Shown here one piece after another: positions 1-3,561 of a stretch of 64,000 nt of DNA. The stretch is from Halogeometricum sp. S3BR5-2 (GTDB lineage Archaea; Halobacteriota; Halobacteria; Halobacteriales; Haloferacaceae). Where the stretch lies: contig NZ_JAMQOQ010000003.1 in the NCBI RefSeq assembly GCF_031624635.1, forward strand, positions 62,001 through 126,000, written 5' to 3'. Made by a program: the position numbers and the translations under genes. Below the pieces are notes generated by a model. That model saw only the letters and a list, made by a program, of their open reading frames with translations, ran no database searches and was not told the DNA's origin. Position 1 is the first letter of the stretch. Every line of letters begins with the position of its first letter.

Positions 1-71
1 AATCTATCCTCGGAGCGATTGCCTGCCGACTTCCCCATTTTAAATAACCTTGTCCTGTAATGTGAAACGTC

Positions 72-1373
72 GTGGAATACCGTCGAACTGCCGTCATCAA
101 ACTCGACACGCCCTCGGACGCCAAACCAGCACTCCGAGAGACAGTCGAGCAATTCAAACACTGCGCTAACCGCGCGAGCGAATGGTGTTGGCACGGGCGT
201 CGCCAGATTCCTCCGGAATCTGGCTGCCAGCCAGAAACGCGGAGCGTTTCTGGTGACGACGACGGATACCACGTTACCTCGAAAGCCACAGCCGAACGCG
301 CCCTCTACGACCCACTCCGCGACGAAACCGACCTAACCGCGAATCTCGTCCAGAAAGGGATTCGCCGAGCGGTCGAAGCCGTCAAGAGCGGAGTCGAACG
401 GCTCAAGCGCGGAGAGAACACGTCCAAGCCCCACTTCTCGGCGGACAGCGTGGTGTACGACAAGCGGAGTGCGACGTTCCACCGCGACCACGTATCCCTC
501 TCTACCGTAGACGGACGCGTTGAGTGCGAGTACATCCTTCCCGACGACACAGAGAAACCGCCGACCAAGTACGTCTCCGATGACGACTTCGAGTTTCGCA
601 TGGGGCACCTCCAGCACCGAGACGGTGACTGGTATCTCCACGCCTCCATGCGGAAAGTCGAAGCCGACGAGACGCCCGACCCGGACACCAAGCACAGAAC
701 AGTCCTTGGTGTCGATTTGGGCGTCAACAACATCGCCGTGGCTTCGACCGGACGCTTCTGGTCGGCGGACGAGTTTAACCACTGGCGTCGGGAGTACGAG
801 AAGCGTCGTGGGTCGCTCCAACAGTGCGGTTCTCGACACGCCCACGAGAACGTCCAGTCCATCGGGCGTAAAGAGGACGGTCGGTTTGAACAAGACCTCC
901 ACACGATAGCGAACGAACTTCTTGAGGAAGCCATCGAGTACGGCTGTTCGCATATCGTGTTCGAGGACTTGACGCATATCCGCGAGAACATCCCCGACGC
1001 GACGTGGCAACATGTGTGGGCGTTCCGACGCCTCTACGAGTACGTCGAATACAAGGCCAAGGAATACGGCCTTAGCGTCGAACAAGTTCCGCCGGAGAAC
1101 ACGTCTAAGCGGTGTTCGACGTGCGGATGTACCCACGACGACAACCGTAATGGGGAGTCGTTTGAGTGCCAGAAGTGTGGGTACGAGAACCACGCGGACT
1201 ACAACGCGAGCAAGAACATCGGCTTTCGGTATCTCCGTCGTCGGCAAAACGCAGACGATGGAGGCGCACCCGTAGGTGTTGCGCTAAATCGCGGGACGCT
1301 GAACGTGAGTGGCGAGTATTCGCCCGCCAGCGATGGCTTGAACGGGAGTCCACGCGAAAGCCCACGATTTTAG
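72..1373 (+). CDS. tnpB: TnpB RNA-guided endonuclease (IS605-type OrfB)
   Basis: This 433-residue protein is a TnpB nuclease, in the family from which Cas12 arose. The three RuvC acidic motifs are present: GVDLGVNN (first Asp), VFEDL (Glu) and ADYNASKNIG (last Asp). A four-cysteine zinc finger (CSTCGC then CQKCGY) precedes the last one, so the nuclease looks intact. Such proteins cut DNA next to a short target-adjacent motif using an RNA made from the element's 3' end. It starts at a GTG. About residues 44-60 are encoded by an in-frame insertion of two back-to-back palindromes (203-253) between the N-terminal CANRASEW region and the conserved GYHVTSKATAERALY segment. Whether this loop is tolerated is unknown. 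Confidence 0.93.
   Translation: MEYRRTAVIKLDTPSDAKPALRETVEQFKHCANRASEWCWHGRRQIPPESGCQPETRSVSGDDDGYHVTSKATAERALYDPLRDETDLTANLVQKGIRRAVEAVKSGVERLKRGENTSKPHFSADSVVYDKRSATFHRDHVSLSTVDGRVECEYILPDDTEKPPTKYVSDDDFEFRMGHLQHRDGDWYLHASMRKVEADETPDPDTKHRTVLGVDLGVNNIAVASTGRFWSADEFNHWRREYEKRRGSLQQCGSRHAHENVQSIGRKEDGRFEQDLHTIANELLEEAIEYGCSHIVFEDLTHIRENIPDATWQHVWAFRRLYEYVEYKAKEYGLSVEQVPPENTSKRCSTCGCTHDDNRNGESFECQKCGYENHADYNASKNIGFRYLRRRQNADDGGAPVGVALNRGTLNVSGEYSPASDGLNGSPRESPRF
203..253 (+). repeat. Paired-palindrome cassette inside tnpB
   Basis: Hairpin A (203-223) has arms ccagattcc and ggaatctgg around a tcc loop. A 7-nt spacer (ctgccag) follows, then hairpin B (231-253) with arms ccagaaacgc and gcgtttctgg around gga. 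The cassette is exactly 51 nt, so it adds 17 codons without shifting the frame. The end of A, the spacer and the start of B form a third small palindrome (tggct, gcc, agcca at 221-233). The same two-hairpin layout occurs at the 3' end of the second tnpB (19988-20039) with different stem sequences. Confidence 0.75.
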
Positions 1374-1384
1374 TCGTGGGTTAC

Positions 1385-2044
1385 TTACTCGTAGGGTTTC
1401 CCACCCGGACCGAAGAGCAACTCGCCGATAGCGCTCTTCGCGCCTTCTCGAAGCCGTCGGGACAGCAGTCAATCGTTAACGCCGATGAGTTCCGCCAGCT
1501 CTTCTTGGGTGGTCTTACGAGGGACGTCCCAGTACCCGCTCTCGTAGGCCGTAGCCAAGATGTCGTGTTGTTCCGACGTGAGCGGTCCCTTTTCCGGCGG
1601 CATCAGCGGATTGTACAACTCGAGCAGTTCCACGTCGATATCCTGCCGCTGACACGCCCGACGGAACCGCTCGAGATCCGTCTGCTTTCGAAACTGGAGC
1701 CTGAAGTCCCACGACTCGGCCGTGCCCGTGGCCGTCAACACGTCGACACCCAAATCGACGAGAGTTCGAACGAGCGCGTCGACATCGGGGCTCCAATCGA
1801 CGGAGTAGAGGACCCGAGTGGGCGTTCGGGTCAGCAGGGTGATGTCCTCGACCAACGGATCGTTCGTCAGCGTCTCCGCGACGGCGCCTTCGCTCCCGCT
1901 GTCCACCCAGAACAGCGGCATAACTCCCGTCTGCGTCGGCACGAGTTGTTCGAGTTCTATCTCGACGTCCGGGTAGTCTTCGAGAATTCGTCCGAGGGGA
2001 AACTCGCGTGCAGGGACGCGAACGTCGGTGATGATAGTAACCAT
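1385..2044 (-). pseudogene. HTH-10 (bacterio-opsin activator-like) regulator, in-frame TGA
   Basis: The frame encodes an N-terminal regulatory domain starting MVTIITDVRVPA and a C-terminal HTH-10 domain. It is closely paralogous to the neighbour at 2099-2767. After GVND a TGA (1469-1471) stops translation at 191 residues, but the same frame continues as LLSRRLREG then AIGELLFGPGG to a TAA at 1385-1387. That tail aligns with the paralogue's MSQRLRRGT and AELLYGTG. The stop falls inside the DNA-recognition part of the helix-turn-helix, so the product should not bind DNA normally. The frame's natural end coincides with the right end of the adjacent TnpB element. A single substitution (for example TCA or CGA to TGA) would explain it. 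Confidence 0.8.
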
Positions 2045-2098: not shown

Positions 2099-2767
2099 TC
2101 ATGACCCCTTAGATCGTTGCTGTCGTCCGGTTCCGTACAGGAGCTCCGCCACGGCGATTTTCGTTCCCCGACGAAGGCGCTGCGACATCGAGTTGTCGCT
2201 GATTCCGACGAGAGCGGCTAGTTCTCTCTGGGAGATGCCGCGCGGGACGTCCCAATAGCCTTCCTCGTATGCCGTCGTGAGCGCGTCCTGTTGCTCGGGC
2301 GAAAGCGGTCCCGTCTCCTGCGGCATCTGTGGATTGTATACTCTCAGCAGTTCGATATCGATGCCTTCGTCTTTGCAGGTTCGGCGGAACTGACTCAACT
2401 GCTCGCGGTCCGTGAACTGGAGGCGGAACTCCCAGAAGTTGGCCGTGCCCTCCGCGGTCAGCACGTCGACGTTGAGGTCGACTATCGCCCGAACGAGCGA
2501 GTCGACCTCGGAACTCCAGTTGACCGAGTAGAGGATTCGGTCGGGCGTCCGGGTCAGTTGGCTGATCTCTTCGACGAGGGAATCTTTTTGGAGAGTCTGT
2601 TCGACCTCCCGTTCTCTCTCGGATTCGACCCAGAACAGCGGGATGATTTGCTCACGCGTGGGGACGATACGTTCGAGTTCTATCTCGACGTCCGGGAACT
2701 CCTGTAGGATGCGTCCGAGTGGAAACTGGTTTGCGGCTACACGGATATCGGTGATGGTCGTGACCAT
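2099..2767 (-). CDS. HTH-10 domain transcriptional regulator
   Basis: This 222-residue protein has the haloarchaeal two-part layout. The N-terminal half (MVTTITDIRVAANQFPLGRIL onward) is the variable sensor-like domain. The C-terminal HTH-10 domain covers about residues 160-215 (GPLSPEQQDALTTAYEEGYWDVPR, then ELAALVGISDNSMSQRLRRG). Proteins of this family resemble the DNA-binding part of bacterio-opsin activator Bat; the ligand cannot be read from sequence. It is the intact tandem paralogue of the interrupted gene at 1385-2044, only about 50 nt away and in the same orientation, so the two arose by local duplication. It may now be the only functional copy. Confidence 0.88.
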   Translation of the reverse strand: MVTTITDIRVAANQFPLGRILQEFPDVEIELERIVPTREQIIPLFWVESEREREVEQTLQKDSLVEEISQLTRTPDRILYSVNWSSEVDSLVRAIVDLNVDVLTAEGTANFWEFRLQFTDREQLSQFRRTCKDEGIDIELLRVYNPQMPQETGPLSPEQQDALTTAYEEGYWDVPRGISQRELAALVGISDNSMSQRLRRGTKIAVAELLYGTGRQQRSKGS

Positions 2768-3153: not shown

Positions 3154-3339
3154 ATGACACAGTCGAAACAGCCGACCACGAAAGCGGAGTTCCGTGAACA
3201 ACTCGAAGAACTCATCCGAACCGCCGAGGCGAACGATATCGATATCGCCGGCGGCTACTCCTTCAGAACCGACGGCGACGGTGCAGACTGGGGTCTCGAA
3301 CTGCTCGAGGTAGTCAAACCCGACGAGGACGACGCCTGA
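3154..3339 (+). CDS. Small haloarchaeal hypothetical protein (61 aa)
   Basis: The ATG at 3154 opens a 61-residue acidic protein with clear haloarchaeal composition and codon use: AEFREQLEELIRTAEANDID, then GGYSFRTDGDGADWGLELLEVV and an acidic tail. A predicted helix is followed by short beta strands. The longer frame reaching back to 2914 has poor codon bias and starts in AT-rich DNA, so the later start is preferred. It is convergent with the mini HTH-10 gene 12 nt away. I do not recognise a named family with certainty; similar small proteins accompany haloarchaeal two-component genes. Confidence 0.7.
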   Translation: MTQSKQPTTKAEFREQLEELIRTAEANDIDIAGGYSFRTDGDGADWGLELLEVVKPDEDDA

Positions 3340-3351
3340 GGAGGAACGGTC

Positions 3352-3561
3352 TCACTCGTCGAGTGTCGCCCGGAGATGCGTATCGAGCGCCCGCCGTAGC
3401 CGACGCGAGGTTTCGGTGTCCGTGAGTCCGGCGAGGGTACTGAGTTCGACCAGGGAGATTCGACGGGGAACCTCGAAATAACCCTCCTCGATGGCGAGTT
3501 GGAGTAGTTCACGTTCTTGCTCGGAAAGTGTTTCGTGAGAGTCCATCTGAATGCATCCCAT
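3352..3561 (-). CDS. Single-domain HTH-10 protein
   Basis: About 69 residues from MGCIQMDS (64 if MDSHET is used) consist of nothing but an HTH-10 domain: ETLSEQERELLQLAIEEGYF, VPRRISLVELSTLAGL and SRRLRRALDTHL. The usual 130-150-residue N-terminal sensor domain is absent. The extra codons further upstream are AT-rich and hydrophobic and look non-coding. A stand-alone DNA-binding domain could act as a constitutive or competing regulator at sites used by the neighbouring full-length paralogues. It is the third HTH-10 unit in 2.2 kb. Confidence 0.75.
   Translation of the reverse strand: MGCIQMDSHETLSEQERELLQLAIEEGYFEVPRRISLVELSTLAGLTDTETSRRLRRALDTHLRATLDE

Follow-up and report, generated by a model that had tools for sequence, protein, structure and literature searches.

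A tandem Bat-type regulator gene interrupted by an in-frame TGA before its predicted recognition helix in Halogeometricum sp. S3BR5-2

Introduction

A described case of change in a regulator of this kind comes from Haloferax volcanii, where HVO_1357, which carries a BAT and an HTH-10 domain, was mutated repeatedly among selected isolates; in that study, transposon insertions and secondary alterations led to hypermotility (PMC7824242). Here, we analyzed a pair of BAT + HTH_10 regulator genes in a 64,000-nucleotide stretch of the Halogeometricum sp. S3BR5-2 genome (the window), in which one copy is intact and the other is interrupted by a stop codon. We consider it reasonably likely, from sequence comparison, that the interrupted copy is one of two tandem Bat-type duplicates and that it lost its function recently.

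Results

A nonsense codon in front of the predicted recognition helix

The interrupted gene (1385..2044, minus strand) starts with an ATG at 2044 and runs to an in-frame TGA at codon 192 (1469..1471), resulting in a short product of 191 amino acids. Behind this codon, the same frame continues for 27 sense codons to a TAA at 1385..1387, giving a read-through frame of 219 amino acids. The intact tandem paralogue (2099..2767, minus strand, 222 amino acids) lies 54 nt upstream in the same orientation and is 59% identical. An open run of 27 codons is by itself uninformative (P about 0.41 given the base composition), and the claim of a coding continuation therefore rests on homology: the 27 residues after the TGA align in register with the paralogue, with 12 identities, and their BLOSUM62 score was reached in none of 100,000 shuffles. 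The sequence-only reading had proposed a TGA in the frame of an HTH_10 regulator with a homologous continuation, placed at the recognition helix and with an intact tandem paralogue alongside, and these points are confirmed. Relative to intact homologues the stop is premature, as in a pseudogene.

Both domains exceed the Pfam curated cut-offs in the interrupted gene and the paralogue alike. The BAT domain (PF15915) of the interrupted gene reaches 54.7 bits against a cut-off of 25.8, which is above the 42.7 bits of the intact paralogue. For HTH_10 (PF04967), the read-through frame matches profile positions 1-46 with 42.3 bits, the same extent as in the paralogue, and the short product matches only positions 1-35 of 53 (38.7 bits). 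The TGA thus takes away profile positions 36-46, and a complete HTH_10 domain is absent from the translated short product. An AlphaFold2 model built with seven sequences places helices at residues 157-168, 180-186 and 193-210, although its confidence is low around the third helix (pLDDT about 40-45). Since residue 192 stands just before this third helix and the HTH_10 match is shortened, we infer that the short product would lack the recognition helix and would have lost specific DNA binding.

Near the tandem pair, a stand-alone HTH_10 protein of 66 amino acids (3355-3552, minus strand; 50.6 bits) is encoded, which has no BAT domain. A 61-amino-acid open reading frame without a Pfam match (3154-3339, plus strand) is divergent from the regulator pair.

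Intact relatives and the ancestral state

No close orthologue was found in the four other genomes of the genus, of five covered. A same-genus search returned other internal stops (G000 C2, G002 C23), which were rejected as candidates because each of them genuinely terminates a protein whose HTH domain is complete. In the family sample (170 genomes, E 1e-48), there was likewise no close orthologue, and three matches of 41-42% were obtained besides the genome's own. Close relatives appeared in two genomes of the order sample (392 genomes), once as a tandem pair and once as a single copy: Halalkalicoccus paucihalophilus DSM 24557 carries two intact copies in tandem (59% and 60%), and Halocatena marina DFN5 a single intact relative (62%). 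A further intact relative is located on a Haloarcula pelagica plasmid (57.5%). The search of genome contigs depended on the query, with no relative found using the read-through protein and four relatives found using the alignment.

The full-length frame of the interrupted gene aligns with these intact relatives, and the counterpart of codon 192 in the Halalkalicoccus, Halocatena and Haloarcula sequences is Asn or Thr; no aligned relative is interrupted there. In the second Halalkalicoccus copy, the frame closes at the same point with a similar tail (GPAGEPF-stop, compared to GPGGKPYE-stop in the interrupted gene). Because intact relatives exist, including this copy with its like end, the full-length frame represents the ancestral form, as judged from the aligned sequences. 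In the best tree, the interrupted gene groups with the second Halalkalicoccus copy (AU 0.89, alternatives 0.18 and 0.09); as the alternative trees also stand in the AU test, this pairing is suggestive and not decisive.

The TnpB element at the end of the frame

A TnpB element of 1446 nt overlaps the end of the regulator gene (1..1388, plus strand; its start at -57 lies outside the window). It is flanked on the left by TCAC, has the right end GGGTTACTTAC and contains the tnpB gene (72..1373, plus strand, 433 amino acids), which scores above the cut-off for Cas12f1-like_TNB and below it for OrfB_IS605, with the TnpB nuclease domain (PF07282) at 81.5 bits. The ends at -57 and 1388 were set by comparison with two copies on Halorussus halophilus plasmids. 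These are TnpB-only elements, 86-87% identical, with the same ends, the same left flank TCAC and tnpB as the only gene. Both ends are common to all three copies, whereas the flanking sequences differ, as expected for an element of the IS200/IS605 type. Unlike the Halorussus halophilus copies, the element described here has inserted into a regulator's stop codon. The natural stop had been described as lying directly at the end of the TnpB element; this holds for the position at the element end, but the TAA is part of the right end and does not lie beside it.

We rejected the insertion as the cause of the break, since joining the flanks gives the same last residue: the frame then ends with GKPYE followed by a TGA, and the element's own TAA replaces this TGA. 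The joining takes TCAC as the target, whereas TCAC as part of the element would let the frame run on; we prefer TCAC as the target because the Halalkalicoccus copy ends alike. Most likely, judging from the reconstructed junction, the TnpB insertion did not break the regulator gene.

Inside tnpB, a 60-nt in-frame insert (197-256, plus strand) consists of two perfect hairpins with 10-nt arms and 3-nt loops. It is found in one of the Halorussus halophilus copies and missing from the other, occurs as a single copy in the genome and has matches in 2 of 72,556 plasmid records. This insert resembles a short palindromic element that has entered a coding sequence.

Nature of the lesion

A recent single-base change had been among the origins proposed for the TGA. 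We compared the site to 99 homologous HTH_10 sequences, leaving out the interrupted gene's own fragment, and this origin appears doubtful. In the column of codon 192, only 2 of the 99 homologue codons are one base away from TGA. The next codon, CTG (1466..1468, Leu), is two bases away from all 99 and within one base of none, and the residue at this position is Ala, Thr or Ser in 98 of the homologues and Leu in none. Taken together, no homologue matches TGACTG in more than three of its six bases, and a single point mutation or a one-base sequencing error would therefore be insufficient to explain this hexamer. In a leave-one-out control, a comparable distance was seen in 1/99 homologues at this site and in 25/4,744 codon pairs overall. 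Probably, at least two bases were altered here.

These observations also bear on a sequencing or assembly artefact masking an intact gene, which we regard as unlikely. The assembly is a draft of 22 contigs, and the remainder of the frame is clean and appears conserved, as an artefact would predict. However, correcting one base of the TGA leaves Leu193, a residue without counterpart in the comparison set, and the error would have to cover several bases or consist of two close indels.

Over 15 nt at the TGA, the nearest homologues show five mismatches but only three edits. A mismatch-to-edit gain of this kind was found in 0/99 homologues at the site, and in 30/223 equally divergent 15-mers over all sites. 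These values give only a hint that two close compensating indels might have caused the TGA.

Readthrough and phase variation

The frame downstream of the TGA can still be recognised, as would be expected if the TGA were read through to some degree and a full-length protein produced. We nevertheless consider readthrough, which had been put forward from the sequence, very improbable. A tRNA-Sec search of the genome returned five matches, none above the family cut-off, and these weak matches are ordinary tRNAs for Ser, Arg, His, Thr and Gly according to ARAGORN. In a review of archaeal recoding, the redefinition of stop codons in Archaea is tied to selenocysteine and pyrrolysine (PMC8211752). Among the 44 HTH_10 matches in the genome, an internal stop occurs in the interrupted gene alone (1/44), which, together with the uninterrupted aligned relatives, also argues against readthrough. 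Moreover, Asn190, Leu193 and Glu200 each occur in none of the 99 other homologues, so the helix would be unusual even if it were translated.

A phase-variable gene, alternating between broken and intact forms, had likewise been suggested, and seems barely conceivable here: positions 1440-1500 contain no direct or inverted repeats of at least 8 nt, and the TGA sequence is absent from the paralogous copy.

Age of the interruption and constraint

The 219-codon frame contains no further stop and, compared to the relatives, no frameshift. On account of this otherwise undamaged frame and of a BAT score above that of the paralogue, we propose that the inactivation would be recent. Counts of changed codons were used in place of dN/dS, as dS values (1.3-2.9) were near or at saturation and one pair was not computable. 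Before the TGA, 68-73 of 191 codons are changed compared to four relatives, and the intact second Halalkalicoccus copy shows 71-77 of 191. After the TGA, and restricted to the two copies against which both genes were compared, the interrupted gene shows 12/24 and 15/27 changed codons and the second Halalkalicoccus copy 17/24 and 19/26. Up to the TGA, the HTH has a typical profile score (rank 54 of 100, counted from the lowest). Beyond the TGA, it scores 7th lowest of 100, a value that covers 11 residues and is suggestive only. The substitution patterns do not demonstrate decay, which would fit a recent inactivation and continuing selection on the part before the TGA equally, and also leaves room for an assembly error.

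Such selection would be expected if the short protein were a working regulator deficient in DNA binding, acting as a titrating partner of the paralogue or as a sensor only. The BAT domain is kept whole, codons before the TGA show no excess of changes, and the two genes are co-oriented in tandem with the 54 nt spacing, all of which would suit this role. On the other hand, a stop at codon 192 is shared with none of the aligned relatives, and change after the TGA is not faster than in the intact Halalkalicoccus copy; we hold a working short protein to be quite unlikely. That selection itself fixed the stop, thereby making a kept 191-residue BAT partner of the paralogue (e.g., a dominant-negative or sensing subunit), appears less likely again from the sequences compared.

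Discussion

For the inactivated duplicate that we favor, the following course can be assumed. The second member of the tandem BAT + HTH_10 pair would have been lost by a local multi-base change, recent on an evolutionary scale, which put the TGA directly in front of the predicted recognition helix. The translated product would then be a 191-residue protein that keeps the complete BAT domain and the beginning of the HTH and lacks the recognition helix, a loss that the paralogue might buffer, as the sequence-only reading had suggested. The TnpB element would have inserted into the stop codon in a separate event, with no effect on the protein.

These findings correct the annotation of one gene and illustrate an ordinary fate of tandem duplicates within a large regulator family; gene decay of this type, with a regulator copy broken by a stop codon, is nothing unusual. 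Were the short form functional, it would provide a simple natural test of the role of a BAT domain without DNA binding.

Compared to the Bat-type regulators defined by PF04967 and PF15915, the locus has both domains above cut-off, and the short product retains HTH_10 only up to position 35. The likeness to HVO_1357 of Haloferax volcanii lies in the fact that BAT + HTH-10 regulators can be lost, and the difference in the receiver, HalX and GAF domains that HVO_1357 also carries.
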